Positions 47,848-62,436 of a stretch of DNA of 64,000 nt are shown here, piece after piece. The stretch is from Reichenbachiella ulvae (GTDB lineage: Bacteria; Bacteroidota; Bacteroidia; Cytophagales; Cyclobacteriaceae). Below the pieces are notes generated by a model. That model did no database searches. It saw only the letters and a program-made list of their open reading frames with translations, and had not been told where the DNA came from. The stretch is from the NCBI RefSeq assembly GCF_025833875.1, contig NZ_JAOYOD010000001.1, positions 3,968,001 to 4,032,000 on the forward strand, written 5' to 3'. A program made the position numbers and the translations under genes. The number at the start of each line of letters is the position of its first letter. Position 1 is the stretch's first letter.

Positions 47848-48001
47848 AAATCGTCTTTTTCTTTGATCAAAAAATAAATCTTTGGTCTGCTTCGTTAAGC
47901 TTCAGCCATCAAAGTTGAAACCCAGACCAAGAAAACAGGCTCAAAGCTATTTATTCTTAGTCATTATTACATATTTTGCATTTTTTAACATTCTTTAATT
48001 C

Positions 48002-48652
48002 ATGACCAAAATATCATTTGAGCTGTGGGGAATGCAGCTGTTGGAACCGATGGGTTTTTTGCTCAATATGGTAATGTGCCTCTTTTCATTTGCTTTGTTT
48101 TTTCGATTGAAAGATGAAGAGGTAAGTGAATTCAAAAAACATTGGATCAATTTTTACTGGCTTTTCGCCCTTTCTACCCTTTTCGGAGGTTTCTCTCATT
48201 TGCTATACAACTATTTGGGCATGATGGGCAAAGTTCCAGGATGGCTAGCTGCAGTATTTGCCATCGCCAGCATCGAGATGGCAGTGGCCACCCAGCACCC
48301 TGACAAAGAAGGTCTGCTGAAAAGAATCATTCGCTTCAAAGCAATCGTGGTTTTAGTACTCATGGCCATCGATTTGCATTTCACCTGGGTCATGATCCAA
48401 ACCGCCTCAGGACTGCTGATCATCTTAGGCATTTCATCGATTCATCATGTCAAAAGAGGTCAGGGGCATTACCTGCTTTTCCTTTATGGAATCGGCCTGA
48501 TGATCTTGACGCTACCGTTCAGACTGGGCCAGATCGACTTGCACCTTTGGTTCAACAGAGACGATATCAGTCATGTTTTTATGATCTGCACTTTGGCACT
48601 CATGTACAAAGGCGTGAAGCATTCAGAGCTCAAGCTGCAGGCTACTACTTAA
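48002..48652 (+). CDS. Multi-spanning membrane protein of unknown function
   Basis: 216 residues with seven likely membrane helices (about 14-34, 46-66, 76-94, 110-126, 130-146, 155-175, 188-204). The pattern GMQLLEPMGFLLNMVMCLFSFALFF, GGFSHLLYNYLG, and the late DISHVFMICTLALMYKGV recalls the DUF6962 group of Bacteroidota membrane proteins. It is convergent with, and overlaps by 8 bp, the SDR gene. Function unknown. Confidence 0.75.
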   Translation: MTKISFELWGMQLLEPMGFLLNMVMCLFSFALFFRLKDEEVSEFKKHWINFYWLFALSTLFGGFSHLLYNYLGMMGKVPGWLAAVFAIASIEMAVATQHPDKEGLLKRIIRFKAIVVLVLMAIDLHFTWVMIQTASGLLIILGISSIHHVKRGQGHYLLFLYGIGLMILTLPFRLGQIDLHLWFNRDDISHVFMICTLALMYKGVKHSELKLQATT

Positions 48653-49376
48653 AACGCATCATCCGCTCTGCTCCACTCGGATACAGCCGGTGGAGCCATC
48701 GCAGCACCTTTACCTTTCCAACGTTGATCTCGAATTGGTCCTGCTGAAAAGCGTAAACAAAAGCTGAAACCAGTTCTTTGGGAGATATTTTTCCGCTACC
48801 CCGACCATTCGTCATGCCAGTATCGACCAAAGGAGGTATCAGTTCGAAAACCTTGATTCGACCCTCCAGCTGATAGCGCAACACCTGAGTGAAGTTATGC
48901 AGGCCCGCTTTGCTGGCCGAATAGATCGGAGCAGATTGTTTGGGAACAAAGGCCAAAGCAGAGGATACATTGACAATGGCCGAATTCTCATTCTTCTCCA
49001 ATACTTCAATCAAGCCAGTTGCCAGATTGATCGGCGCGATCAGGTTGGTAGACATCTCCTCATACACCCAGTGCATCACCTTGTTCTTTTCGGATAGATC
49101 ATAGTTGAACTGCACTCCGGCATTGTTGATCAGTATGTTCAGGTCTGGATGGTCGGCCTTTACGAAATCCAGAAGACCATTGATTTCCTCACTTTTGTTC
49201 AGATCACACTGATAGATGATGAGTTGAGGGTAAGCCTCCTGTAAGGAGCGTAGCGCATAAGTGTTTCTTCCGGTGATGATCACTTGATTGCCAAGGGCAA
49301 GGAAACGCAAGGCCATCTCCTTGCCGATTCCCTTACTACCTCCAGTAATCAATATTTTGTTTCTCTTTAGTTTCAT
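48645..49376 (-). CDS. Short-chain dehydrogenase/reductase (DltE-like)
   Basis: 243 residues. NAD(P) motif ITGGSKGIGKEMALRF, NNAG (INNAGVQFNYDL), catalytic Ser/Tyr/Lys in NVSSALAFVPKQSAPIYSASKAGL. The C-terminal PPLVDTGMTNGRGSGKISPKELVSAFVYAF is typical of the DltE-like subgroup. It ends the unit begun by the TonB receptor gene (18-bp gap). Substrate unknown. Confidence 0.9.
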   Translation of the reverse strand: MKLKRNKILITGGSKGIGKEMALRFLALGNQVIITGRNTYALRSLQEAYPQLIIYQCDLNKSEEINGLLDFVKADHPDLNILINNAGVQFNYDLSEKNKVMHWVYEEMSTNLIAPINLATGLIEVLEKNENSAIVNVSSALAFVPKQSAPIYSASKAGLHNFTQVLRYQLEGRIKVFELIPPLVDTGMTNGRGSGKISPKELVSAFVYAFQQDQFEINVGKVKVLRWLHRLYPSGAERMMRFK

Positions 49377-49394
49377 GATTGTAGTTACTGAATT

Positions 49395-51803
49395 CTAAAA
49401 ATTGATCCTGTACATCACGTCTGGAAAGAAGCCTGTTTGCTCTACCAGATTGATATCATCCGTCACCTCATTGTATCGCTTCACAAATTCATTTTTGCGA
49501 TTGGTGACATTCAGCAAATCGATGAAGAACTGATGCGAAATATCACGCTTAGCACTGTTGAGGCGGACGCCAAATTTCACATCCCAGCGAAAATAGTTGC
49601 CCAGCTGCTCTTCGAATGCCTGATTGTCAAAGCGCACTTCTTCCCCATTGTTTTGTCTGGTGGCATCCAGATCGATGGCCGTGTAGCGCTGGCCTCCAGC
49701 AGTGGTCAACTTAGTGTCAAAGGTCCAGGCATGCTGACTCTGGCTCCCAAATTTCCACTCCTTCCCAAATAAAGTATTGAAGACAAAGTGATTGTTGAAA
49801 GCGGTGCTGCGAGTAACATCATCACTGCCTTTGTACTCAGAATCATAGATCGAAGTAGTCAGGAGCAAATAATAACCATGACTGAAAAATTTCTCCAAAG
49901 TCAATTCCAGTCCATAGTTGCTACCTGTGCCTTCATTGACCAGCGAGCCTTTGTTTTCGAATACGAAATCCGCTCCTTCGTTCAGCACGGAATAACTGCT
50001 AGGGGTAGACTCGACAGGTACGTCGTAGAGGTACTGATAGTAGAGTTCCGTTTTCAGTCTCCAGTCGGTACCGAGCTGCCGGTCATAGCCAAGGACAAAA
50101 TGATGACTCTTCATGAAATCCAGTTGATCGTTGGTGCGTCGATAGCTGCCATCTGCCTGCTCCTCCTCCAAAAACAGTACTGGACTAGGAATTGCCTGAG
50201 CATGCAGTCCATAGGCAAAGCTGATGCGCTGCTGATTGAGCAACTCATAGCTGATCGCCGCTCTCGGTTCTAATACTGTGGACTCGGTATAGTCGTGATA
50301 TTGGCTGTGGAGACCAAAAGTAGTACTCAATCGATCGCTCACTTTGTACTCAGCCTGCGCAAAGACCTGACTGACTGAATAGCTTTCTTCAAAATCACGA
50401 TAGAGCAAGAAATAATCAGGAATACCGTCTCCATCATTGTCTGGGACCTCTGGCTGGTTGTCTCTACTCTCGGTAAAGAAGTTAGGCAAATACAACTCAG
50501 TCAAAAATCCTGCTCGCAATGACCAACGTGCATTGAATTTCTTGTTGAGCTGAGAAGTAAGGGATACCCTACTTTCCCGGTTTTCATTGTTGACAGATCG
50601 GTAGGCATCGATCTGCTGTCCTGCAGCATTGCGAATCAGATTGTCCTGAAAGTATTGATTGCTATAGGTAGACACCCCAATGGCCGATTTGATATAAGCC
50701 GTCTTGCTCAATCGTCCCGTATGTGTCACACCTAACATACCCAGATCATTATCAATAAAGGCGTCCTCATTAGGATTGGCAAACAGATCATCCTCGTCGA
50801 TCTCATCCCCATGAAAATCGATACTGCTCAAGCCACCCATTCCAAAAATCTCGAATCGCCCCAAAGGGCTATCTCCGAGATTTAATTTGAAAGAAAGATC
50901 TTGATAGACGGGTATGGCACTAGTACCAGTAGCAGCAAACTGAGCCAAACCATAGCGATAAGAAATCAGAAAGGAAGAACCATTCTTACGACTGATCGGT
51001 CCTTCGGCCATGGCTTCCACTCCTGAAAACACACTCATCTGCGCAGTGAATTCATAATTGTCCGCATTTCCATTTCTAAAATTGACATCAAAAACCGCTG
51101 CATTCGCATTGCCATACTCAGCAGGGAATGCACCCGTAAGGAAATCTGACGTTCGTAGCATGTTGGTGTTGAGGGCATTGACAGGACCGCCAGTTGTGCC
51201 CAGTGTGGCAAAGTGATTGGTAGTGGCTATGGGCAGGCCATTCAACCTCCAAAGCAGTCCTGTCGGTGAATTGCCCCGTACGACGATATCATTTCTGGAA
51301 TCATTCGGCGCACTGACCCCTGCAAAAGAGGTAGCCAGTCGTGCCACGTCATTTCTACCGCCCGAAAAGCGGGTGACTTCTTCCAGACTGAAAGTTCTCG
51401 CACTCACCTTAGCCAGTTCATTGATGGGAAGGTCCTTGTCCGCTCCGGCAGTGACTACTACTTCATCGAGCTTTTCGACTGACTCTTCTAGTTTGATCTG
51501 GAGTACGACTTCCTTTCCCATCGTTACCAGCACATTGGGCAGTGTGATGCTTTTATATCCCACATAGGTGACAGCAAAGCTCTGTCGGCCTATGGGGATA
51601 TTATTCAGCTTAAAGTTTCCTTCGATGTCTGTAATGGTACCGATCAATGGATCAGAGCCTATCAACTGAATAGATGCCCCGATCAGTGGGTATTCGGATT
51701 GTACATCTATGATTTGCCCTTTTACAGTTTGGGTTTGGGCCTGTACATGCAGGCTAAGCATTGCGGCGATGATACCGAGCAGCAGCGTAACTACCTTTTT
51801 CAT
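49395..51803 (-). CDS. TonB-dependent receptor
   Basis: 802 residues from the ATG at 51803, which gives a proper signal peptide (KKVVTLLLGIIAAMLSLHVQA); a reading from 51833 adds ten residues. A carboxypeptidase-regulatory-like domain (KGQIIDVQSEYPLIGASIQLIG) is followed by a plug (LDEVVVTAGADKDLPINELAKVSARTF, VRGNSPTGLLWRLNGLPI) and an outer-membrane barrel ending VMYRINF with terminal phenylalanine. It imports an unknown substrate across the outer membrane. It is next to an SDR and divergent from a LytS/LytTR pair that could regulate it. Confidence 0.92.
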   Translation of the reverse strand: MKKVVTLLLGIIAAMLSLHVQAQTQTVKGQIIDVQSEYPLIGASIQLIGSDPLIGTITDIEGNFKLNNIPIGRQSFAVTYVGYKSITLPNVLVTMGKEVVLQIKLEESVEKLDEVVVTAGADKDLPINELAKVSARTFSLEEVTRFSGGRNDVARLATSFAGVSAPNDSRNDIVVRGNSPTGLLWRLNGLPIATTNHFATLGTTGGPVNALNTNMLRTSDFLTGAFPAEYGNANAAVFDVNFRNGNADNYEFTAQMSVFSGVEAMAEGPISRKNGSSFLISYRYGLAQFAATGTSAIPVYQDLSFKLNLGDSPLGRFEIFGMGGLSSIDFHGDEIDEDDLFANPNEDAFIDNDLGMLGVTHTGRLSKTAYIKSAIGVSTYSNQYFQDNLIRNAAGQQIDAYRSVNNENRESRVSLTSQLNKKFNARWSLRAGFLTELYLPNFFTESRDNQPEVPDNDGDGIPDYFLLYRDFEESYSVSQVFAQAEYKVSDRLSTTFGLHSQYHDYTESTVLEPRAAISYELLNQQRISFAYGLHAQAIPSPVLFLEEEQADGSYRRTNDQLDFMKSHHFVLGYDRQLGTDWRLKTELYYQYLYDVPVESTPSSYSVLNEGADFVFENKGSLVNEGTGSNYGLELTLEKFFSHGYYLLLTTSIYDSEYKGSDDVTRSTAFNNHFVFNTLFGKEWKFGSQSQHAWTFDTKLTTAGGQRYTAIDLDATRQNNGEEVRFDNQAFEEQLGNYFRWDVKFGVRLNSAKRDISHQFFIDLLNVTNRKNEFVKRYNEVTDDINLVEQTGFFPDVMYRINF

Positions 51804-52079
51804 TTGATTAGCATTTGGTTTCGTGAATCTCATTTGTTTTGGTGCAATAAGTTCTGAGTTTCAACTAAGTCTGGCTCAAAGAAGATAAGAATCAAAAGGC
51901 TTAATAAATAGAAATGGATGAAACGAAAAAATTTTGACCTGAACCGCAGAATTATTGAGGTGAGCTGGAATGCGAAAATTCCAGTGAATTCATCTCCCAT
52001 ATCGACTGCTTCACTTTTGATTTTTCCGGCTTCAGTTTGGATTCTTTACTTTTGATAGGGATTCGTCGTATTCTTGTAC
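51804..52079. other. Divergent intergenic region between the TonB receptor and LytS genes
   Basis: 276 bp that must contain the two divergent promoters. No clear TTG-N19-TAnnTTTG pair or palindrome was recognised in it. Confidence 0.4.
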
Positions 52080-53126
52080 ATGTTGAAAATCAAAGAAATA
52101 TATCTGCGCTGGTTTGGCATATTGGTGGTGGCCTTGATTGTGAATTTCTTCATCAAGCAACATGAGCATGCGCAAATGCCCATTTGGCAGCAGGTTTTGA
52201 TTTCTTTCACCTTCACCGCTATCCTTTGGAATGGTGTCCTTTTCATCATGCTGAGGATGAGAAAAAGGTACACCTCTATTCAGAAAACCCCCCGAAGGCT
52301 CATAGTCACATCTGTATTAGCCTCCTTGCTTTTGGTGTTTGGATCCAATCTGATTGGTATGGTATTGGGGCTTTGTTCTTTGGATGACCTCAAGAATCCA
52401 GCTTACTTTTTCCGGTACGCTCATGTCAATTTTATCGTGGCTATTATAGTCACCTCGATCTACGAGGGAGCTTATTTCTTTGGGAAGTGGAAGGACTCAC
52501 TGATCCAAAACGAAGAATTGAAGAGCCAGCAGATTCGCACACAATACGGTGTGCTTCAAAATCAAATGAGCCCACATTTTCTCTTCAACAGTCTAAACAC
52601 ACTGACCACCTTGATCACGGAAGACCAAAATACTGCGATCGATTTTACCCAGACGCTTTCGGATGTTTATCGCTACATCCTTCACAACAAGGAGCGAGAA
52701 TTGGTTCCACTCTGTGAGGAAATGGAATTTTGCCAATCCTACGTCTTCCTGCTGAAGAAGCGCTTTCCTGAAAACTTTGAAGTCAGCTTTAATATTCCCA
52801 AGACCAAAAGACATCTCTACATTGCCCCTCTGACACTTCAGATGCTATTAGAAAATGCCATTAAACACAATGCCATCACGAAAGGTTCTCCGCTGAGGGT
52901 GGAGGTGAAAGTGGACGAAAACAACCTGCTCGAAATTAGAAACAACCTCCAGACCAAACACTCGCTGGAGATATCCACCAAGACAGGGCTGGAAAACATC
53001 AAAAAGCGCTACCAACTCCTCGGGCAGCGAGCCATCAATGTGGTCAAAACAGAAAAAGACTTCATCGTACAAGTACCTTTGATCGAATTGATATCTGAAG
53101 TGGAACATCTAAAATCTGCCGTATAG
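52080..53126 (+). CDS. LytS-type sensor histidine kinase (second pair)
   Basis: 348 residues from the ATG at 52080 (a TTG two codons earlier is less likely). Four membrane helices (about 10-145), then the His_kinase domain with the phospho-acceptor in VLQNQMSPHFLFNSLNTLTTLI, and an ATP-binding region (LQMLLENAIKHNAI, ISTKTGLENIKKRYQLLG). Its stop TAG overlaps the GTG of the regulator (TAGTG). Stimulus unknown. Confidence 0.92.
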   Translation: MLKIKEIYLRWFGILVVALIVNFFIKQHEHAQMPIWQQVLISFTFTAILWNGVLFIMLRMRKRYTSIQKTPRRLIVTSVLASLLLVFGSNLIGMVLGLCSLDDLKNPAYFFRYAHVNFIVAIIVTSIYEGAYFFGKWKDSLIQNEELKSQQIRTQYGVLQNQMSPHFLFNSLNTLTTLITEDQNTAIDFTQTLSDVYRYILHNKERELVPLCEEMEFCQSYVFLLKKRFPENFEVSFNIPKTKRHLYIAPLTLQMLLENAIKHNAITKGSPLRVEVKVDENNLLEIRNNLQTKHSLEISTKTGLENIKKRYQLLGQRAINVVKTEKDFIVQVPLIELISEVEHLKSAV

Positions 53127-53890
53127 TGAAAGTACTGATAGTAGAAGACGAGGCGCCAGCATTTAGACGCCTACAGAAAATGCTGGAAGAAGTAGACGAA
53201 ACCATCGAAATCGTAGAAGTGATCGATGGTGTGGAAGAAAGCGTCAACTGGATGAAAGGCATCAGCAACTGGCCTGACCTGATCTTCATGGATATCCAAT
53301 TGAGCGATGGGATCAGTTTCGATATCTTCGAAAAAGTAAAGGTGCAATCCCCAGTGATCTTTACCACAGCCTTTGACGAATACATGCTCAAGGCCTTTCG
53401 TGTCAACAGTATCGACTACCTCCTCAAGCCGATTAATCAGAAAGAATTGGTCCGCAGTCTGGACAAATATCAGAACCTTCGCTCCTCACTGGCCCCTGTA
53501 TCTGAGCCCAATATCCAGGAGCTGATGAAATGCATTCAAATTGGCAGTGCCAAATACAAATCCCGTTTTTTGGTGAAAATGGGTGAAAAAATGATGTCGG
53601 TAGAGACGGAGAATATTGCCGCCTTTCAGGCACTCAATGGTTTGGTGTATTTGATCAGCCAATCTGGGAAGCGCTATGTGATCGACCTGACGCTAGAAGA
53701 CATCATGAAAGAGCTCGATCCCGAAAAGTTCTACCGGGTCAATCGCCAGTTCATCCTTTGCTATCACTGCATCGATTCGATCCACAAATACGGCAAGAGC
53801 AAACTGCTCATCGAACCCAAGCTCGAATTAGAAGAGCCCATCATCGTCAGTAGCGAAAGGGCCAGTGCTTTCAAGCAGTGGTTGGGGTAA
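53126..53890 (+). CDS. LytTR-family response regulator (second pair)
   Basis: 254 residues from a GTG that overlaps the kinase stop. Receiver domain with IVEDEAPA, the phospho-acceptor in DLIFMDIQLSDG and the lysine in IDYLLKPI; LytTR domain from about 150 (RFLVKMGEKMMSVETENIAAFQALNGLVYLI, FYRVNRQFILC). The gene ends just before an inverted-repeat element. Confidence 0.92.
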   Translation: MKVLIVEDEAPAFRRLQKMLEEVDETIEIVEVIDGVEESVNWMKGISNWPDLIFMDIQLSDGISFDIFEKVKVQSPVIFTTAFDEYMLKAFRVNSIDYLLKPINQKELVRSLDKYQNLRSSLAPVSEPNIQELMKCIQIGSAKYKSRFLVKMGEKMMSVETENIAAFQALNGLVYLISQSGKRYVIDLTLEDIMKELDPEKFYRVNRQFILCYHCIDSIHKYGKSKLLIEPKLELEEPIIVSSERASAFKQWLG

Positions 53891-53895
53891 ATGCC

Positions 53896-54390
53896 CTCGC
53901 AAAGACGCCAAGACGCATTGCGTACAATTGTTTATTTTTAGGTTTCCTAAACCTAAGAACCTACCATGACCGAAAACCAAATTGCCTCTTTAATTGTAGA
54001 TACCTGCTATCAAATACACACGCAACTAGGGGCAGGATTATTCGAATCAGTTTATGAAGAAATACTGACTTACGAACTGAGAGAAAAAGGATTAAAAACG
54101 GAAAGGCAAAAAGGAATCCCCGTTTTCTGGAAAGACATCAAAATGGATGTCGGGTTTAGAGCAGATCTTATCATTGAGAACAAAGTGATTATTGAAATCA
54201 AGTCGGTGGAACTCATAGCTCCTGTGCATAAAAAGCAGCTATTGACCTACTTGAAAGTAACAGATTTAAAGCTGGGCCTATTGATCAACTTTAATGAAGC
54301 CTTAATCAAGAATGGGATAACAAGAATCGTCAACAAACTATAAATCGGTGAATATTTATTATCAGCTTGGCGACTTTGCGTCTCAGCGAG
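53896..54390. mobile_element. Possible GxxExxY cassette bounded by inverted repeats
   Basis: CTCGCAAAGACGCCAAGACGC-like sequence (53896-53916) left of the gene and CTTGGCGACTTTGCGTCTCAGCGAG-like sequence (54366-54390) right of it are imperfect inverted copies of one another. They enclose only the GxxExxY gene. The words CGCAAAGACGC and CTTTGCGTCT belong to a repeat type often seen dispersed in Bacteroidota genomes. No transposase is present, so mobility is an inference. Confidence 0.45.
53966..54343 (+). CDS. GxxExxY protein
   Basis: 125 residues. The name-giving motif is GAGLFESVYEEILTYELREKG (G-x-x-E-x-x-Y), followed by TERQKGIPVFWKDIKMDVGFRADLIIENKVIIEIKSVELIAPVHKKQLLTYLKVTDLKLGLLINF. The late part (D-x-n-E-I-K pattern: FRADLIIENKVIIEIKS) resembles a PD-(D/E)xK nuclease core. 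The biological role is not known. It lies between inverted repeats. Confidence 0.9.
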   Translation: MTENQIASLIVDTCYQIHTQLGAGLFESVYEEILTYELREKGLKTERQKGIPVFWKDIKMDVGFRADLIIENKVIIEIKSVELIAPVHKKQLLTYLKVTDLKLGLLINFNEALIKNGITRIVNKL

Positions 54391-54515
54391 AAAAACCAAG
54401 TTTCATTAGTTTTGAATTTCATTAATATTTTAACACTTCATTGAGAATTTGATAAAAAACAGGTAATTGTCCACTAATAGTTCCAATAATGGAGACATTT
54501 ATATAAAAAGCAATC

Positions 54516-54523
54516 TATCTTTG
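54516..54523 (+). promoter_or_regulatory. -7 promoter element of the sulfite reductase leader transcript
   Basis: TATCTTTG matches TAnnTTTG and is 50 bp before the leader-peptide ATG at 54573. No good -33 TTG is found at the right spacing. Confidence 0.5.
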
Positions 54524-54572
54524 AACCCCTTTTAGGATATATGCGTTATGCATGTACTCAAAAGTTAAGACA

Positions 54573-54668
54573 ATGAAAATTAACACATTATATATTTCAA
54601 AAATGATCGGTTGTTGTCAGCCGTGTTGTTGCTGTACTGACTGCAGTACCAGTGGGGATATATATTAA
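54573..54668 (+). CDS. Cysteine-rich leader peptide of the sulfite reductase gene
   Basis: A 31-codon ORF with ATG at 54573 and TAA at 54666-54668. It contains seven cysteine codons in eleven positions (residues 14, 15, 18, 19, 20, 21 and 24: CCQPCCCCTDC). It lies between a -7 promoter box and an intrinsic terminator that immediately precedes the sulfite reductase gene. The composition and layout are those of an amino-acid attenuator: when cysteinyl-tRNA is scarce, ribosomes would stall on the cysteine run. Hairpin GTACTG-ACTG-CAGTAC (54634-54649) lies in the coding part. Confidence 0.8.
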   Translation: MKINTLYISKMIGCCQPCCCCTDCSTSGDIY

Positions 54669-54744
54669 TGTTTGGAACAAGACCATTTATTCAATACCAA
54701 AATAAAACATTAAAAGCCTCTCCACGCCAGGAGAGGCTTTTTTT
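54652..54744 (+). promoter_or_regulatory. Candidate cysteine attenuator (antiterminator/terminator switch)
   Basis: The terminator at 54712-54744 has its 5' arm GCCTCTCC paired with GGAGAGGC. The sequence GTGGGGA at 54652-54658, just after the cysteine codons, can pair with TCTCCAC at 54719-54725 (7 bp, one G-U), which would break the terminator. A ribosome stalled on the cysteine codons leaves 54652-54658 free; one reaching the stop covers it. This is the classical attenuator geometry, shown here by sequence only. Confidence 0.6.
54712..54744 (+). terminator. Intrinsic terminator directly upstream of sulfite reductase
   Basis: GCCTCTCC-ACGCCA-GGAGAGGC (8 GC-rich pairs; further A-T pairs below) followed by seven T residues. 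It ends 22 bp before the sulfite reductase ATG, so it must be bypassed for expression. Confidence 0.9.
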
Positions 54745-54766
54745 AGATTAAAACACGAAGCACGCC

Positions 54767-56887
54767 ATGCAAAGTTTTAGAACAGAATTAGAAAATCTGG
54801 ACAATCCAGTAGTAGAGAAGGACATCATCGATCTGGCCGCTCGGATCGAGAAGTTCAACAATGGAGACATTGACCCTGACAAGTTTAGAAGCTTACGACT
54901 TGCCAGAGGAGTTTACGGTCAGCGCCAGCCGGGCAACCAAATGGTCAGAATCAAGATACCATATGGTAAAATGAGCGTAAAGCAGCTGAGAAGAATCGCT
55001 GACATCTCTACCGAATACGGTGGGGGCAACCTACACGCTACCACTAGACAGGATATCCAAATCCACTATGTGAGTCTGGATCGCACGCCAGAATTGTGGG
55101 CTAAGCTAGAGCAAGACGACATCACGCTAAGAGAAGCCTGTGGTAATACGGTAAGAAACGTGACCGCCTCTCCTGTAGCAGGTATCGATCCTAACGAACC
55201 ATTTGATGTATCTCCATACGCTCATGCAGTGTTTGAGTACTTCTTGAGAAACCCTGTGTGTCAGGAAATGGGACGTAAATTCAAGATCTCCTTCTCGTCA
55301 AGTGACAAAGACACAGGTATCTCTTTCATTCACGACATTGGGTTCATTCCTAAAGTGAAAACTGAAGGTGGAAAAGAAATCAGAGGATTCAAGGTAATGA
55401 TCGGAGGGGGTCTGGGTGCACAACCTGCTCCTGCAGTCAAAGCATATGACTTCCTCGAAGAAGATCAGATCATCCCATTCACTGAAGCCCTTTTGAGAGT
55501 TTTCGATCGCTATGGCGAAAGAAAAAGAAGAGTAAAAGCGCGTTTCAAATTCTTGCTAGCCGATATCGGTCTGGAAGAAGTAATGCGACTGGTAAAAGAA
55601 GAGTGGAATGCCCTAAGCACTAAAAGCTATAAAATCGATACCAGTGCAGTTGCTGGTCCTGTTCTGCCAACAACCATTGGTTTTTCTGACAAGGCCTTGA
55701 TCAATCCTGAGCAATTTGAATTGTGGAAAGAAACCAACGTTCACCCACAGAAGCAGGAAGGATACTACTATGTAGAGGTGAAGGTTCCTAATGGTGACAT
55801 CAGCTCACAAAAGGCGCATAAGTTTGCCGACATCATCAGCAAGTATGCTGCAGATGACGTTCGTGTGACGGTCAATCAGGGATATGTCTTGAGATATGTG
55901 AAAGAAGACAGCTTGAAGTCGCTCTTCACTGAACTGGATGACCTGAATCTGGCGAACCCAGGATTCGACAGCACGGCAGACATCATCGCTTGTGCGGGTA
56001 CCGATACTTGTAACCTCGGGATCTCTAACAGTACGCGCGTAGCATTAGAGCTCGAAGGAGTGATCGAGCGCGAGTACCCAGAGCTGATCAAAAACAATGA
56101 CATCAAAATCAAAATCAGTGGATGTCCTAACTCTTGTGGTCACCATGCGATTGCTTCTATTGGATTCCACGGGTCGTCTTTGAGAAACAAAGCCACTAAA
56201 AAAGTATTGCCAGCTGTGCAGGTGCTACTCGGAGGTGGATTGGACAAAGATGGTGACGGTTTCATCGCTGAGAAAGTGATCAAAGTGCCTAGCAAAAAAG
56301 CGCCTGACGTATTGAGAGTTTTGTTCAACGACTATGACGAAAATGCGGAAGAAGGCGAGTACTATGCTACTTACTTCAAAAGACAGGGCAAGGATTATTT
56401 TTACCAACTGTTGAAATTCTTAGCGGATACTGAAAATGTAACCGATTCGGACTACATCGACTGGGGTAAAGACGAGCAATTCAAAGTAGAAACAGAAGTG
56501 GGTGAATGTGCTGGCGTGATCATCGACTTGTTCTCTACGCTGATGTTCGAAGCAGAGGAGAAAGCACAGTGGGCCAAACAAGCACATGAGCTAGGCAACT
56601 ATGCAGATTCTATCTACCACGCTTACAGTGTTTTCATCAACGGAGCTAAGGCCCTGTTGGTAGACAAAGGCGTGACTGTAAATACGCAAGCAGGCATCAT
56701 GAAGAGCTTCGACGAGGAGTTCGAGGGTGATTTCGAAAGCGTAGTAGGATCATCTTTCACCGATTTTGTGTTGAGAATCAAGCAAAACGAGCCAAGCAAA
56801 GAGTGGGCTGAGAAGTTCATCGAGGACGCAGACCAGTTCCTTGGCAAAGTGAAAGAAGTACAGGAGCAAGAAACTGAAACTGTATAA
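54767..56887 (+). CDS. Assimilatory sulfite (nitrite/sulfite) reductase with C-terminal extension
   Basis: 706 residues. Ferredoxin-type siroheme reductase: two half-domains (RGVYGQRQPGNQMVRIKIPYGKMSVKQLRRIADIS, then GYYYVEVKVPNGDISSQKAHKFADI) and the [4Fe-4S]-siroheme ligands C409 and C415 (CAGTDTC), C453 and C457 (SGCPNSC). It reduces sulfite to sulfide for cysteine synthesis. The last 140 residues (from about 570) form a helical HEPN-like domain absent from classical CysI. Siroheme is supplied by the genes at 57196-58551. It is preceded by a cysteine leader and terminator and followed by its own terminator. Confidence 0.9.
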   Translation: MQSFRTELENLDNPVVEKDIIDLAARIEKFNNGDIDPDKFRSLRLARGVYGQRQPGNQMVRIKIPYGKMSVKQLRRIADISTEYGGGNLHATTRQDIQIHYVSLDRTPELWAKLEQDDITLREACGNTVRNVTASPVAGIDPNEPFDVSPYAHAVFEYFLRNPVCQEMGRKFKISFSSSDKDTGISFIHDIGFIPKVKTEGGKEIRGFKVMIGGGLGAQPAPAVKAYDFLEEDQIIPFTEALLRVFDRYGERKRRVKARFKFLLADIGLEEVMRLVKEEWNALSTKSYKIDTSAVAGPVLPTTIGFSDKALINPEQFELWKETNVHPQKQEGYYYVEVKVPNGDISSQKAHKFADIISKYAADDVRVTVNQGYVLRYVKEDSLKSLFTELDDLNLANPGFDSTADIIACAGTDTCNLGISNSTRVALELEGVIEREYPELIKNNDIKIKISGCPNSCGHHAIASIGFHGSSLRNKATKKVLPAVQVLLGGGLDKDGDGFIAEKVIKVPSKKAPDVLRVLFNDYDENAEEGEYYATYFKRQGKDYFYQLLKFLADTENVTDSDYIDWGKDEQFKVETEVGECAGVIIDLFSTLMFEAEEKAQWAKQAHELGNYADSIYHAYSVFINGAKALLVDKGVTVNTQAGIMKSFDEEFEGDFESVVGSSFTDFVLRIKQNEPSKEWAEKFIEDADQFLGKVKEVQEQETETV

Positions 56888-56912
56888 GTATTGTAAAATT
56901 TAAGGTTGGAAT

Positions 56913-56962
56913 ACGCCCTTCTGTGACCCTTTTTCAGGAAATTGCAGAAGGGCGTTTCTTTT
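56913..56962 (+). terminator. Terminator of sulfite reductase
   Basis: ACGCCCTTCTG (56913-56923) pairs with CAGAAGGGCGT (56945-56955), 11 bp, followed by TTCTTTTTT. Confidence 0.85.
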
Positions 56963-56988
56963 TTATTTGGGATGGAAACCCACCCCTG

Positions 56989-57004
56989 CCCCTCCCAGGA
57001 GGGG
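56989..57004. repeat. GC-rich REP-like palindrome
   Basis: CCCCTCC-CA-GGAGGGG within a CCACCCCTGCC context; this is a common interspersed palindrome type in Bacteroidota. It lies between sulfite reductase and the siroheme genes. Confidence 0.5.
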
Positions 57005-57150
57005 ATTATTCTTTCGTATATTAATATTCTGCTTAAGGGTTAAGGGGCCGGGCCTTATTCATTTTAGATTTCTGTGTTGCAAAATTAGAATAGAAACAAA
57101 ATAGGAATAACATCCGACCAAAGAAGTTACGCACCAGCTAAAAAGTGATT

Positions 57151-57169
57151 CCCCCTTTCATAAAGGGGG
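57151..57169. repeat. GC-rich palindrome upstream of cobA
   Basis: CCCCCTTT-CAT-AAAGGGGG, followed by TCAGGGGGATT, ends 27 bp before the cobA start. It resembles dispersed palindromic repeats; it could also influence expression of the siroheme genes. Confidence 0.55.
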
Positions 57170-57195
57170 TCAGGGGGATTTAAGAAATCAAATCA

Positions 57196-57963
57196 ATGAC
57201 CAAAAAAGCAAAACTGACACTAGTGGGAGCCGGACCGGGAGATCCAGAGCTTATCACACTCAAGGGCATCAGGGCACTGGAGGAGGCAGATGTCGTGCTC
57301 TACGATGCACTGGCCAACGAAGAGCTACTCGACTACTGCAAACCAGAAGCCATCAAAACCTTCGTGGGCAAAAGAGCAGGCTGCCATGTCTACCAACAAG
57401 ATAAAATCAACGAGACCATCGTATCAGAAGCCAAAAAACACGGCCATGTCGTCCGACTCAAAGGGGGTGACCCTTATGTCTTTGGCAGGGGGCATGAGGA
57501 ACTGCAGTTTGCAGAGGCCCATGGCGTAGATGTGGAGATCGTACCCGGCGTGACCAGTGCCATATCCGTTCCGGCCCTGAATCAGATTCCCCTGACGCGA
57601 CGTGGCATAAACGAGAGCTTTTGGGTGATGACTGCTGTCAAAAGCGACGGTAGTCTGGCGGCTGATATCGAACTGGCCACACAATCTACCGCCACTGTCG
57701 TGATCCTGATGGGAATGAAAAAACTCGGGAAGATTCTCGACGTATTCAAGAAACATGGTCAGGAAGATACCCCGGCAGCTGTGATACAAAATGGCTCACG
57801 TGAGGACGAAAAGATCGTGATCGGCAAGGTCAGCAACCTGTCCCAGCTGGTGCTGGATCATCAACTGACCTCCCCGGCCATTATCGTAATCGGAAAGACC
57901 GTGGCACTGGGAGAAGAAAAACTGAAAAAGAACATCCAACAAATGGATCCAAAACCGGAATAA
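57196..57963 (+). CDS. cobA: Uroporphyrinogen-III C-methyltransferase
   Basis: 255 residues. It methylates uroporphyrinogen III twice to precorrin-2 using SAM. Motifs: LTLVGAGPGDPELITLKGIRALEEADVVLYDAL, VRLKGGDPYVFGRGHEE, VEIVPGVTSAISVPALNQIPLTRRG, and the SAM-pocket stretch VVILMGMKKL. It is followed after 3 bp by the precorrin-2 dehydrogenase gene. It makes siroheme for the upstream sulfite reductase. Confidence 0.95.
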   Translation: MTKKAKLTLVGAGPGDPELITLKGIRALEEADVVLYDALANEELLDYCKPEAIKTFVGKRAGCHVYQQDKINETIVSEAKKHGHVVRLKGGDPYVFGRGHEELQFAEAHGVDVEIVPGVTSAISVPALNQIPLTRRGINESFWVMTAVKSDGSLAADIELATQSTATVVILMGMKKLGKILDVFKKHGQEDTPAAVIQNGSREDEKIVIGKVSNLSQLVLDHQLTSPAIIVIGKTVALGEEKLKKNIQQMDPKPE

Positions 57964-57966
57964 ACC

Positions 57967-58551
57967 ATGAGCGAAGATCGAGGCAACACCCTATTTCCCG
58001 TATTTTTCAAACTAGAAGAAATGAAGCTGCTGATCGTAGGCGGTGGCTATGTGGGCGAAGAAAAACTCGGTGCGGTGCTCAAGAACAGTCCCAGAACCCA
58101 AATCAAAATGGTGGCCACCTGGTTTAGCGAGGCAGTGCAGGACATCGTGAAGGACTATCCGAATATCACCCTGGTCGAAAAAGCCTTCGAACCCAGCGAC
58201 CTGGAGGGCATGAACCTGGTGATCATAGGGATAGACGATCCAGAGGCCAGCAGCCAGATACAGGCAGCCTGTCGCGCCCAAAACGTATTGGTCAACGTGG
58301 CGGACAAACCCGCCCTCTGCGACTTCTACCTGGGCTCAGTAGTCAAAAAAGGCGACCTCAAAATCGCCATCTCCACCAACGGAAAATCCCCCACATTGTC
58401 CAAACGCATGCGTGAAATGCTGACCGATGTGATTCCCGAAAAAATCGACGACATCCTCGACCAGATGGCCAAGGTCCGCGACAAACTCAAAGGCGACTTT
58501 GACTACAAAATCAAAAAGCTCGACGAGATCACCAAGGATTGGAAGGGGTGA
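57967..58551 (+). CDS. Precorrin-2 dehydrogenase (siroheme synthase N-terminal, CysG-N/SirC type)
   Basis: 194 residues. Rossmann opening LFPVFFKLEEMKLLIVGGGYVGEEKLGAVLKNSPRTQIKMVA, then NVADKPALCDFYLGSVVKKGDLKIAISTNGKSPTLSKRMREML, the siroheme synthase N-domain signature. It oxidises precorrin-2 to sirohydrochlorin and may also insert iron. The complete CysG function is split here between this protein and CobA. Confidence 0.92.
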   Translation: MSEDRGNTLFPVFFKLEEMKLLIVGGGYVGEEKLGAVLKNSPRTQIKMVATWFSEAVQDIVKDYPNITLVEKAFEPSDLEGMNLVIIGIDDPEASSQIQAACRAQNVLVNVADKPALCDFYLGSVVKKGDLKIAISTNGKSPTLSKRMREMLTDVIPEKIDDILDQMAKVRDKLKGDFDYKIKKLDEITKDWKG

Positions 58552-58588
58552 GAATTTTCAATCGCCTTACTACTTACCTACTATTTAA

Positions 58589-59122
58589 ATGACCACTAAG
58601 AAAAATATACTGGCAATATGCGGAAGTGCCAGCCGAGAATCAGCTAACCTCAGTATCCTCCGAAGGGTTGCCCAACTGGGAGAATTCCATTTTGAAATGG
58701 AAATCATGGATGATCTAAGCCTATTACCACATTTCCAAACTGAACTGACAGAAAAAGATGTACCTGAGCAAATCCTACAACTACGAGAATCCATTCAAAC
58801 CAGCGATGCGGTGGTCATCTGTTCGCCGGAATATGTATTCAGCATTCCGAGCGGACTGAAGAACCTGATCGAGTGGTGCGTATCCACCACGGTCTTTACG
58901 GACAAGCCTGTCGGCCTTATCACCGCTTCTGCCCATGGTGCCAAAGGACATGCGGAGTTACAATTGCTGATGAAAACCCTGCAAGCCCAATTCACAGAGG
59001 ACAGCACACTCCTGATACCAGGCGTGAAAGGAAAAGTAAATAAGCAAGATGGCATCATTGCCAGCCAAACAGAATCCGAGCTTAAGCACTTCGTAGAGTC
59101 ACTCAAGAAGATGGTTTTGTGA
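58589..59122 (+). CDS. NAD(P)H-dependent FMN reductase family protein
   Basis: 177 residues, flavodoxin-like. FMN-phosphate motif ICGSASRESANLSILRRV, then AVVICSPEYVFSIPSGLKNLIEWCVSTTVFTDKPVGLITASAHGAKG. It reduces FMN or quinones. It follows the siroheme genes by 37 bp and could feed electrons to sulfur metabolism, but this is speculative. Its stop codon lies at the edge of a dispersed repeat (59121-59183). Confidence 0.9.
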   Translation: MTTKKNILAICGSASRESANLSILRRVAQLGEFHFEMEIMDDLSLLPHFQTELTEKDVPEQILQLRESIQTSDAVVICSPEYVFSIPSGLKNLIEWCVSTTVFTDKPVGLITASAHGAKGHAELQLLMKTLQAQFTEDSTLLIPGVKGKVNKQDGIIASQTESELKHFVESLKKMVL

Positions 59123-59183
59123 TCTGTGGATCGCTTTAGATCCCAGCCTGTCCGGATGGCAGGTCTCCTTCGTCGAGATGACA
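59121..59183. repeat. Dispersed intergenic repeat, copy 1
   Basis: Begins GATCTGTGGATCGCTTTAG and contains CCAGCCTGTCCGGATGG, ending CGAGATGACA. Two other copies of the type occur at 62727-62791 and 62815-62856. The preceding gene's TGA overlaps its first bases. Confidence 0.8.
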
Positions 59184-59205
59184 ACTTAATTTGGACACCC
59201 CAGAA

Positions 59206-59478
59206 CCACCCACACATCTCAATTTTACATCCGTAGAATTAAGTTTTTCATTCGTACATGATAATCTTACATCCAAGCAAAAGAATAAACCATCTTTGCC
59301 AATCAAAAGTACCTACAAGCAATTCAATTGTTCATATGTTCAAAGTAATTGAACATTCGAACCTATCAATCGGAAGTCTGTGCAAATCAATAGTCCTATC
59401 GAGCATTTGAAACAGACATCTATGCAATTGAATTGTCAGGCCGATCATTTGACATTTACATCTGTACTTAGTAATATG
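59206..59478. repeat. Array of 13 degenerate 21-bp tandem repeats
   Basis: Thirteen consecutive 21-mers (starts at 59206, 59227, 59248 and so on every 21 bp to 59458) share the consensus ACATCYRWRC followed by AATYNAATTGT. Position 6 is a pyrimidine in 13 of 13 units, position 16 is A in 13 of 13 and position 10 is C in 12 of 13. The best-preserved units are at 59227, 59311, 59374, 59416 and 59458. The period equals two helical turns. The array ends 22 bp before the HTH gene at 59501. One frame reads as heptads such as TSVELSF and TSMQLNC but is broken by a TGA at 59350. An inverted repeat (59330-59362) lies inside. Confidence 0.75.
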
Positions 59479-59500
59479 CAATAGAACTAACCTCACCGGC

Positions 59501-59836
59501 ATGTTAAAACTAAAGATTGACCATGTAGCCCAACTGCGGGGCATACGACGTACCTACAGCTACCTGACAAAACTAGGCATGAGCCACGGAATCGCCCAGC
59601 GGCTCTCCAGCGGAAATGTGAAAAACATCCATCTCAAGCATCTGGAAAACCTTTGCAAAACACTGCGCTGTACTCCGAATGACATACTAGACTGGCAAGG
59701 AGAAGACCTGGATAGAGAACATCCCTTACTCGAACTTCGAAAGGACCCCAAAGCCCTGAAAAGCCTGGAAAAACTCCGTCAAATGCCTTTGGACAAACTC
59801 GAAAAACTGGGACAGTTCTTAGATGAGATGGATTGA
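59501..59836 (+). CDS. Small XRE/Cro-C1-type helix-turn-helix protein
   Basis: 111 residues. The HTH lies at about 8-66: KIDHVAQLRGIRRTYSYLTKLGMSHGIAQRLSSGNVKNIHLKHLENLCKTLRCTPNDILDWQ. The remaining 45 residues are charged and helical (LELRKDPKALKSLEKLRQMPLDKLEKLGQFLDEMD) and could dimerise. The 21-bp array ends 22 bp upstream, so the protein may bind it and regulate its own gene; this is inference. No phage genes are nearby. Confidence 0.88.
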   Translation: MLKLKIDHVAQLRGIRRTYSYLTKLGMSHGIAQRLSSGNVKNIHLKHLENLCKTLRCTPNDILDWQGEDLDREHPLLELRKDPKALKSLEKLRQMPLDKLEKLGQFLDEMD

Positions 59837-59917
59837 TAAATTACGTCACCTTTAATATCCTTAGGACTTGCCCAAGGTATTCCCGTAGCTTTACTATAAA
59901 CTAAACTAACTAACCAA

Positions 59918-61336
59918 ATGAAACGCATCCACCTAATAGTTCCCGCTGCTCTTCTTGTTCTTTCCTTGCTGAGCCACTGCAGCAGTGACGTTGGCGGTAC
60001 TACGCCTGAACCGGAAATCGAGCGACCTCCTGTGAGCGATGTGGCTTGTAGCGATTGTGACTTTGTGATCGAGCCGGGTGTCGGCATGATCGATGGAGAA
60101 AAGCTGGGCATTCAGCCCGGTCAGGTGATCGGTCTTTCCGGATCGGGAGAAAACTATCAAAACATCACCTTTACCAACATCGTGGGCACCGAGGCGGATC
60201 CTATTATCATTCGGAATTGTGACGGTAAAGCCATCATTGAGTCCTACTATGCTTTTGGAGTCAAATTCACCCATAGCGAGCACTTTCGTTTGCTGGGAGA
60301 TGGCGATGTAGCCTCCGACTATGGCATCCAGATTTCTACCTCCAAAGGTTTCTTTCTGACACTCGAGCAGTTTACCACGGACTTTGACATATCGCTGGTG
60401 GAGATCGCAGGATACGAACCCCGTGGAATAGGAGAAAACAATGGGTTCGCAGGTATCGGTATCAAAACCAGCCCCTATCAGGCCTGTGATGTATTTACCG
60501 ATCCTACCCGCAGCGCCTGGATCATGAAAAATGTATCTGTAAGCCACTGCTACATCCACGATACGGGAGGCGAAGGACTCTACATCGGACATGGCTTCTA
60601 TGAAGGCAGAGTGGAAAGCGCCTGCAGCGAGACTACCTATTCGCATTCGATCCAGCATATCCGAATCCATGACAATCGCATAGAGGATGTGGGCTTTGAT
60701 GGAATTCAAATCAAAAACTGCGACAAGGACTGCAAGGTCTTCAACAATGTGATTCGCAACTACGGTCAGCTGGATGAAGGAGCCCACAACGAAGGGCTGT
60801 TCATCGGTGATGGAACCACCGGCGAGTTTTATGGCAATTACATCATCAACGGGACAGGTCATGGCATCCAGTTTTATGGTATCGGCAACAACGATATCTA
60901 CAACAATCTGATCGTGAATGCTGGCAATGGCCCTGATAAGAAAGGAGATGGATTCTATGCCGCAAATGCTGTGCGTTGGGAGGATGGCTATTTCAACGTG
61001 ATGAACAATACCTTTATCAACTCGGGTCGCAATGGTTTGGCCTTCTTTGGAGTCGATGGAGGTGTCAAGCGCTTCTACAACAACATCTTTGCCGTGACAG
61101 GAGCCGAGCTATCCAGAAAAGGTGTAGCCATGGATAGCGCCAACAACATATTTACGCAGAATCTGGAATCCCTCCACTTTAGCAACCCAGACAAAGAAGA
61201 TTACTCCTTGCAGGACGGTTCAAGAGCACTCGATGCAGGAGCGGATGTATCCATGTATGGAATCGATGTAGATATTTTGGGTCAATCACGTCCTGTTGGC
61301 ACTGCCTATGATGTAGGAGCCTATGAGAAGAGGTAA
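59918..61336 (+). CDS. Right-handed beta-helix repeat lipoprotein
   Basis: 472 residues. Lipoprotein-like signal (IVPAALLVLSLLSHCSS, Cys at about 22). The body has parallel beta-helix repeats (ENYQNITFTNIVGTEADPIIIRNCDGKAIIESYY, HIRIHDNRIEDVGFDGIQIKNCDKDCKVFNNVIRNYG, EFYGNYIINGTGHGIQFYGIGNNDIYNNLIVNAG), as in polysaccharide lyases and related surface enzymes. The C-terminus YSLQDGSRALDAGADVSMYGIDVDILGQSRPVGTAYDVGAYEKR is typical of the family. The substrate is unknown. It is followed after 2 bp by an Ntn hydrolase gene. Confidence 0.85.
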   Translation: MKRIHLIVPAALLVLSLLSHCSSDVGGTTPEPEIERPPVSDVACSDCDFVIEPGVGMIDGEKLGIQPGQVIGLSGSGENYQNITFTNIVGTEADPIIIRNCDGKAIIESYYAFGVKFTHSEHFRLLGDGDVASDYGIQISTSKGFFLTLEQFTTDFDISLVEIAGYEPRGIGENNGFAGIGIKTSPYQACDVFTDPTRSAWIMKNVSVSHCYIHDTGGEGLYIGHGFYEGRVESACSETTYSHSIQHIRIHDNRIEDVGFDGIQIKNCDKDCKVFNNVIRNYGQLDEGAHNEGLFIGDGTTGEFYGNYIINGTGHGIQFYGIGNNDIYNNLIVNAGNGPDKKGDGFYAANAVRWEDGYFNVMNNTFINSGRNGLAFFGVDGGVKRFYNNIFAVTGAELSRKGVAMDSANNIFTQNLESLHFSNPDKEDYSLQDGSRALDAGADVSMYGIDVDILGQSRPVGTAYDVGAYEKR

Positions 61337-61338
61337 AG

Positions 61339-62436
61339 ATGAGTTTTATGGCGAAGAAAAATAAATACTATCTGTGGATGGGGCTGAGTGCCTGCCTGGC
61401 CGTCGGTCTTGGGATCACTTACTCGCTGAGCCCTCAACCCTACGATCCAGTACCGGGATCCTGTACGATCTTTTCCGCGGCAATCGGAGATCGGGTTTTA
61501 TTTGGCAACAACGAGGACTACTACAAGCCAAAGACCTATCTATGGACTGATCAAGGCGCCAAGGGAGACTATGGCAGCATTTACCTCGGGTTCAAGGATT
61601 ATTCGCATCAGGGAGGGATCAACGAAAAAGGCCTCTGCTTTGATGCCAACGCGCTACCTAAAAGCCCTATCAATCTGCATCCGGAATTGAAAGCACCGCT
61701 GCACTATCAGGCGCCCTACGAAGAGCACATGATGTGGCTACCGGTGATGATCCTGAGAAAAGCTGCTACAGTCAAAGAAGCCATAGAAATAGCGAAAGAG
61801 TATAAGAAAGACAACTGGTACCCCATCGACGGCTCGGTCAAATATCAATTGCACTTTGCCGATGCAAGCGGGGATGCGGTCGTAATCAGCGTAGATGAAT
61901 CCGGAGAACTGGCCTTCACACAAAAAGAAAAGGATGAGCACTTCTTGATCTCCACCAACTACAACAAAGTCAACCCTGACAATGCGCTGGAGTACCCCTG
62001 TCACAGATACAGCATCGCAGAGCAGCGATTGGCGGCTGTCGATAGCGAGGAGGAGTTGACCGTAGACCTGTTCAGATCCATATTGGACGAGGTGCACGAA
62101 GAGGGCATATTCAACACCACGCTCTATTCCAATATTTTTGATTTGAAGGAGGGTAAGATCTATCTCTATCACTGGCATCAATACGACGAGGTGGTGATCT
62201 TAGATGTTAAGGAAGAGCTGGTCAAAGCGCCCTACCTCATCCGCATCAAGGAGCTGTTTTCCAATGAAACAGCAGGAAAAGCTTCGTTCGAATATGGAGG
62301 GTGGATCATTGGACTCAGTGGAAGCATACTACTGGCCACCGGCCTGGGAGTAGCTGGGGTATATTATTTAAAAAATAAGTCCTGGAGCAAAAAACCCCTT
62401 CCGCCTGTCGGCACCTTCCCCAGGGAAGGATTATAG
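61339..62436 (+). CDS. Membrane-associated Ntn hydrolase (choloylglycine hydrolase/linear amide hydrolase-like)
   Basis: 365 residues. Membrane helix at 10-30; a short linker leads to the catalytic cysteine C42 (GSCTIFSAAIGDRVLFGNNEDYY), which would become N-terminal after cleavage. GGINEKGLCFDANALP and the late INEY-type RCSI (HRYSIAEQRL) match the linear-amide C-N hydrolase group. A second helix lies near the C-terminus (about 320-345, WIIGLSGSILLATGLGVAGVYYL), unusual for the family and suggesting membrane anchoring at both ends. It probably cleaves an amide (bile-salt, acyl-homoserine-lactone or peptide type); the substrate is not known. Confidence 0.82.
   Translation: MSFMAKKNKYYLWMGLSACLAVGLGITYSLSPQPYDPVPGSCTIFSAAIGDRVLFGNNEDYYKPKTYLWTDQGAKGDYGSIYLGFKDYSHQGGINEKGLCFDANALPKSPINLHPELKAPLHYQAPYEEHMMWLPVMILRKAATVKEAIEIAKEYKKDNWYPIDGSVKYQLHFADASGDAVVISVDESGELAFTQKEKDEHFLISTNYNKVNPDNALEYPCHRYSIAEQRLAAVDSEEELTVDLFRSILDEVHEEGIFNTTLYSNIFDLKEGKIYLYHWHQYDEVVILDVKEELVKAPYLIRIKELFSNETAGKASFEYGGWIIGLSGSILLATGLGVAGVYYLKNKSWSKKPLPPVGTFPREGL

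Follow-up and report, generated by a model that had tools for sequence, protein, structure and literature searches.

The window (the whole 64,000-nt stretch of the Reichenbachiella ulvae genome analysed here) contains a gene for a siroheme-type sulfite reductase (SiR), two siroheme genes downstream of it, and a short leader locus between SiR and a GxxExxY gene that ends at 54343 (Table 1). No NCBIfam model matches the SiR protein at cut-off, the best being the NirA family (253.6 of 523); it is 88% identical to the SiR of Reichenbachiella agariperforans. Its substrate is presumably sulfite rather than nitrite, given the siroheme genes downstream and the cysH, cysD, and cysN neighbours in relatives. 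The uroporphyrinogen-III C-methyltransferase gene, 308 nt away, is probably co-transcribed with SiR. Towards its C-terminus, at 56540-56731 (residues 592-655), SiR also shows a weak match to a HEPN domain (24.2 bits against a cut-off of 22).

Table 1. Elements of the leader locus and the genes that follow it, in window coordinates
Feature	Position	Strand	Basis
Bacteroidota-type -7 promoter box TATCTTTG (TAnnTTTG)	54516..54523	+	Sequence; box matched in relatives
Leader ORF, 31 codons, 7 Cys codons (MKINTLYISKMIGCCQPCCCCTDCSTSGDIY)	54573..54668	+	Sequence; ATG 54573, stop TAA 54666-54668
Putative regulatory codons TGT TGT CAG CCG TGT TGT TGC TGT	54612..54635	+	Sequence; Cys clusters similarly placed in relatives
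Region 2, candidate antiterminator strand GTGGGGA	54652..54658	+	Pairs with region 3; strand in relatives fits own terminator arm
Intrinsic terminator, stem-loop 54712-54741, T run 54738-54744	54712..54744	+	12 pairs, 6 G-C; similar hairpin in relatives
Siroheme-type sulfite reductase (SiR), presumed regulated gene	54767..56887	+	Pfam NIR_SIR, NIR_SIR_ferr
Uroporphyrinogen-III C-methyltransferase (siroheme)	57196..57963	+	NCBIfam PRK06136 over cut-off; Pfam TP_methylase
Precorrin-2 dehydrogenase domain protein (siroheme)	57967..58551	+	NCBIfam TIGR01470 over cut-off; Pfam NAD_binding_7, Sirohm_synth_M

A preliminary description of this DNA had pointed to a 31-codon ORF with seven cysteine codons, a strong terminator 22 bp before the SiR start codon, and a possible pairing between GTGGGGA and TCTCCAC, and all three are present where it placed them. 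The seventh Cys codon, a TGC, lies at 54642-54644, apart from the putative sensor codons. The stop codon is separated from the terminator by 43 nt, and the T run ends 22 nt short of the SiR ATG. With its 12 pairs, the terminator beats every other site listed for 48000-62000. TCTCCAC (54719-54725, here region 3) lies within its 5' arm and can form a 7-pair duplex of -11.2 kcal/mol with GTGGGGA. The promoter box is about 50 nt 5' of the leader ATG; transcription probably starts downstream of it near 54530, which would put the ATG about 40 nt past the start.

Occurrence among relatives and chance expectation

Leader loci were compared in three sets of genomes. Among 59 nearby genomes searched (own included), this SiR is found in 35, and 24 of these, again with the own genome, have a leader and terminator before it (23 of 34 loci, plus L189). 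One of the others has only the ORF (L021) and ten have neither ORF nor terminator. The named set consisted of the best 80 of 577 relatives, minus three judged to be duplicates of relatives (L061, L065, L134). Of these 77 distinct loci, 15 have a unit directly upstream of SiR, including loci from Pedobacter, Mucilaginibacter, and Cyclobacteriaceae. Nine more have a distant upstream unit, of which five were counted: these precede cysH (L070), an aldo/keto reductase (L091, L110), a peroxiredoxin (L118), or a second Cys ORF (L129). The peroxiredoxin is of the 1-Cys type and lies upstream of SiR. The distant units at the other four loci (L066, L074, L114, L130) were taken as chance occurrences.

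The third set was a draw of 296 genomes from the class, 71 of them with SiR (own included). Leaving out the own genome, one already seen (G046), two in which the match was partial or weak (G124, G312), and three loci that exactly repeat earlier ones gives 64 new SiR loci. A unit is directly upstream in 23, further up in five, and absent in 36. The 28 loci with a unit span 12 families; in all of these counts, leaders within one lineage are non-independent. In relatives with the unit, the ORF and terminator hold their place and the rest of the peptide has diverged, so the worry in the preliminary description that relatives might conserve neither does not hold. At four loci (L072, L074, L076, L133) there are short ORFs upstream of SiR with five to six consecutive Cys codons near the end and no called terminator.

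The leader ATG is kept in an alignment of eight genomes of the genus, and TAnnTTTG is found at the matching place in all eight. More widely, this motif, quoted as a promoter consensus in a passage of PMC9723704, occurs upstream of 47 of 85 leaders, compared with 8.1 (sd 2.6) in Markov shuffles. Transcription therefore most likely begins before the leader. A start downstream of the terminator, named in the preliminary description as evidence that would count against an attenuator, is argued against by the box 5' of the ORF throughout the genus, the start itself being predicted from that box.

Short ORFs with at least three Cys in eight codons followed by a terminator were found in 38 of 110 SiR-upstream windows and in none of 1129 random windows from the same loci. 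For the cysteine synthase considered below, Cys-rich short ORFs with a terminator were found in 19 of 27 windows, and in 3 of 198 control windows. The Cys and terminator thresholds behind these counts were fixed after the first relatives had been inspected, and the class-wide set serves as a check. Leucine is also raised in the SiR count (33/110 versus 15/1129), as expected because a TGY run one frame off always reads Leu. All 35 TGYTGYTGYTGY sites in the own genome were inspected. Only two of them belong to a short ORF that has a terminator after it: the SiR leader and one ahead of a cysteine synthase. In the same genome no leader was found at two loci of the PAPS reductase family (2 of 3 inspected) or at cysS. 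Its PALP-family matches number seven: the leader-bearing cysteine synthase, four genes without a leader (the best CysK among them), and two weak matches outside the comparison.

Reading frame, alternative pairing, and spacing

Changes between T and C in a TGY run are silent in the Cys and Leu frames alike, so a poly-Leu reading was also considered. The frames were compared for 42 runs of at least three TGY codons followed by a terminator. An in-frame ATG with no intervening stop is present for 39 of the 42 in the Cys frame, compared with nine in the Leu frame and five in the Val/Ala frame; if a stop ahead of the terminator is also required, the numbers are 39, seven, and two. In all 98 units the Cys-frame stop is at least 16 nt before the terminator, while in the other two frames a stop at least 15 nt before it was found in 103 of 196 cases. 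On this placement of starts and stops, poly-Leu and poly-Val readings were ruled out.

The leader peptides have little in common beyond the Cys cluster, and their lengths range from some of about 20 residues to some of 40-50. The many Cys residues and the longer peptides would suit a small protein with a role of its own, such as metal or thiol binding, with the terminator simply ending its gene; the shorter peptides and the divergence outside the cluster would not. Such a gene arrangement would also require a SiR promoter to fit into the 22 nt after the T run, and a protein would have no need of a strand that fits the terminator arm at a fixed spacing, as described next. A small protein of this kind is considered highly improbable.

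In the window, the GTGGGGA/TCTCCAC pairing taken alone is not significant compared with shuffles (p 0.076), and when the whole terminator is included the minimum-energy fold is the terminator rather than the antiterminator. The weight for a switch thus comes from the relatives. Compared one by one with shuffles, 18 of the 34 SiR leaders give p below 0.05 and 16 do not. A swap test compared how well the sequence 3' of the Cys codons pairs with the terminator arm of its own locus and with arms from other loci: for the 34 SiR leaders, -12.4 with the own arm and -9.4 permuted; for 57 SiR and cysteine synthase leaders together, -13.0 and -9.8; and for 40 units from the new class loci, -15.1 and -11.5 (0/20000 permutations in each case). 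The covariation that the preliminary description had suggested looking for is thus seen, with the strand changing along with the terminator arm. In the window fold the Cys codons are spanned by a protector hairpin, for which the signal across the set is weak (0.37 versus 0.30, 60/20000).

Region 2 starts a median of 11 nt past the last Cys codon in the 98 units, and in 84% of them the distance is 5-20 nt, compared with 28% in shuffles. If a ribosome at the stop codon is assumed to cover from -18 to +12 relative to the end of the stop, region 2 falls under it in 79 of the 98. Of the exceptions, 17 have an ORF that continues for over 18 nt beyond region 2, and the other two fit neither pattern. 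This spacing matches what would be needed for the strand to be free when a ribosome is stalled at the Cys codons and, in the 79 units, covered when one is at the stop.

These results also bear on two readings in which the hairpin or the ORF would be of secondary importance. Actinobacteria have similar runs of Cys codons in short ORFs before cysteine genes, where, as far as excerpts of PMC1262725 go, no terminator hairpin was found. Excerpts of PMC13236596 and PMC9031893 cite a translational mechanism for the mycobacterial (M. smegmatis) poly-Cys leaders, which are leaderless ORFs. By analogy, control here could be by translational attenuation, or by Rho-dependent ending, with the hairpin secondary. 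Set against this, the R. ulvae ATG is some 40 nt inside the predicted transcript, and in most loci the ORF is succeeded by a terminator with a T run, 20-60 nt short of the gene. The strand that a stalled ribosome would expose pairs with the terminator arm, the partner it was compared with, and several units stand at the head of an operon, at a distance from SiR. Control of this type is thus regarded as unlikely.

The presence of a structured leader ahead of a gene for sulfur amino acid metabolism might likewise suggest a metabolite-binding riboswitch or a T-box, with the terminator as its expression platform and the ORF incidental. SAM riboswitches and T-boxes resemble this locus in acting by early termination at the RNA level before such genes, as described in part of PMC3766115. 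In scans of the window and of 12 leader loci, neither they nor any other Rfam family, including the attenuator families, reached the gathering score; five sub-threshold matches were taken as chance. What is conserved here is a switchable pair and the codons of one frame, with an ORF, presumably translated, in the place of the sensor. A riboswitch or T-box is accordingly given very little probability.

A second leader, tandem units, and methionine codons

The second poly-Cys leader with a terminator in the own genome (L038 / L144) lies at G000:C1 ~1916090-1917200 on the minus strand. Its peptide ends in AGCCCCEL, and it is directly 5' of a cysteine synthase-like gene (Pfam PALP), which is followed by a JAB-domain gene. 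The best NCBIfam match of the former is cysteine synthase B, at 264.6 bits and so under the cut-off of 394.2. A leader precedes 14 of the 16 close copies of this gene in the nearby set (own included; L148 and L159 are without) and none of four distant copies. In the class draw, the cysteine synthase is found in 12 of 296 genomes, and five of the 11 besides the own have the leader. In five of the six without it, another ORF on the same strand ends 17-72 nt upstream, and these leaderless copies may therefore be internal to operons.

Two leader-terminator units are found in tandem at 12 of the 64 new class SiR loci (L205, L207, L208, L211, L214, L215, L225, L231, L232, L237, L244, and L259, all with complete units). 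Elsewhere, complete tandem units occur at L015 and L070 and at the cysteine synthase loci L154, L158, L168, and L171. The tie between leader and SiR proposed in the preliminary description stands, and the arrangement extends more widely than it envisaged: to cysteine synthase and, in some operons, to cysH, peroxiredoxin, and aldo/keto reductase genes further up, often as tandem units. At several of the tandem SiR loci, the peptide of the first unit has a motif resembling MCCMMCI at its end.

Methionine is enriched near the Cys clusters of the SiR leaders. In the stretch that opens with the first Cys and closes four residues past the last, Met accounts for 95 of 429 non-Cys residues in SiR leaders and 5 of 99 in cysteine synthase leaders (Fisher 2.6e-5). 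By leader, 53 of 79 SiR and 3 of 20 cysteine synthase leaders have Met in this region (Fisher 3e-5), with the reservation that the enrichment was noticed and tested on one and the same set of leaders. An earlier count with another window rule gave 50/78 and 1/16. The proportion of Met in antisense Cys-rich sORFs is 1.7%. In a table of 13 genomes with both leaders, Met is confined to the SiR leader in six, of which three belong to one genus, and none shows the reverse; G254, outside this table, does have the reverse, with Met confined to its cysteine synthase leader. The SiR leader in the window has no Met in its Cys-cluster region. Trp is also enriched by the Cys cluster of SiR leaders, to a lesser extent than Met (20/429, 4.7% versus 0.7%).

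The sulfide produced by SiR feeds both cysteine and methionine, which makes dual sensing of the two plausible, bearing in mind that leaders of the same lineage are non-independent. As a tentative proposal, with the odds slightly against it, leaders of a sulfur regulon present across much of the class Bacteroidia may have codon mixes that match the use of the product (Cys and Met for SiR, Cys alone for cysteine synthase), and tandem units may steepen the response or combine signals.

Predicted attenuation and its relation to known systems

At the level of sequence, the comparisons establish the ORF, its frame, the terminator, the covarying alternative pairing, the spacing, and the link to cysteine genes. 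With high confidence, SiR is predicted to be controlled by a ribosome-mediated transcription attenuator that senses the supply of cysteinyl-tRNA. A transcript starting near 54530 would be translated from the leader ATG. With enough cysteine, the ribosome would reach the stop at 54666 and cover GTGGGGA; the terminator would then fold and the transcript end at about 54744. When cysteine is low, the ribosome would be expected to stall at the Cys codons, leaving GTGGGGA free to pair with TCTCCAC of the terminator 5' arm before its 3' partner has been transcribed. The antiterminator would allow read-through into SiR and probably the siroheme genes, so that cysteine shortage would relieve the early termination. 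The preliminary description had interpreted the locus in this way, and conservation, the Cys frame, own-arm pairing, spacing, and the second leader, all from comparison of sequences, lend support. The locus is very likely a genuine cysteine attenuator that belongs to a wider sulfur regulon, and such leaders most likely serve to restrict sulfur-assimilation enzymes to times of cysteine shortage in many Bacteroidota.

Cysteine-responsive attenuation has reportedly been described in mycobacteria (Canestrari 2020). The classical attenuators (trp, his, thr, ilv, and phe of proteobacteria, trp of actinobacteria) share with the present loci a short ORF with codons for the end product, an intrinsic terminator, an alternative antiterminator pairing, and a ribosome-sized spacing. 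The differences are the specificity for Cys (with Met also in SiR leaders), the SiR and cysteine synthase targets, the phylum, the frequent tandem units, and the lack of a clear conserved protector hairpin. In the sections available of a 2010 attenuator survey (PMC2965389), cysteine appears only in a reference title, and it is stated that before the survey's own Firmicutes case no leader-peptide system had been shown outside Proteobacteria and Actinobacteria except ermC. The amino acid attenuators in the excerpted part of an RNA regulon survey (PMC3766115) are for other amino acids only. Within the Bacteroidota, excerpts on the Flavobacterium psychrophilum transcriptome report strong clues for leader-peptide attenuation at amino acid operons (PMC9723704), and part of a study of B. 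thetaiotaomicron mentions sORFs reminiscent of leaders (PMC7366714). No Cys leader, with a terminator or otherwise, was found for this phylum in the open-licence papers searched, which take in neither most subscription papers nor any preprints. The predicted mechanism is of a classical type, and the Cys specificity, the phylum, the tandem layout, and the Cys/Met mix appear to be new.

If this is correct, the Bacteroidota would have a cysteine sensor with no need for a protein regulator, and a Cys-codon attenuator with an intrinsic terminator would join a family whose actinobacterial Cys leaders lack one. Ribosome-based attenuation would also imply close coupling of transcription and translation in the Bacteroidota. 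It would become possible to annotate cysteine regulons from sequence, and the tandem units and the Cys/Met mix could be tested in culturable Pedobacter, Mucilaginibacter, and Reichenbachiella.

It was also considered whether the leader and a nearby gene for an Rrf2-type regulator (a name assigned by eye from sequence) might be alternatives to each other. Two leaderless genomes (G025, G028) have such a gene by the cysH operon, and a third (G008) shows none within the segment inspected. Leader and gene occur together at several loci of Pedobacter and Mucilaginibacter, so no rule was adopted. At L185 and L187, and at several loci of these two genera, a gene of Rrf2-type appearance is close to the cysH or SiR operon, whether or not a Cys leader is present.
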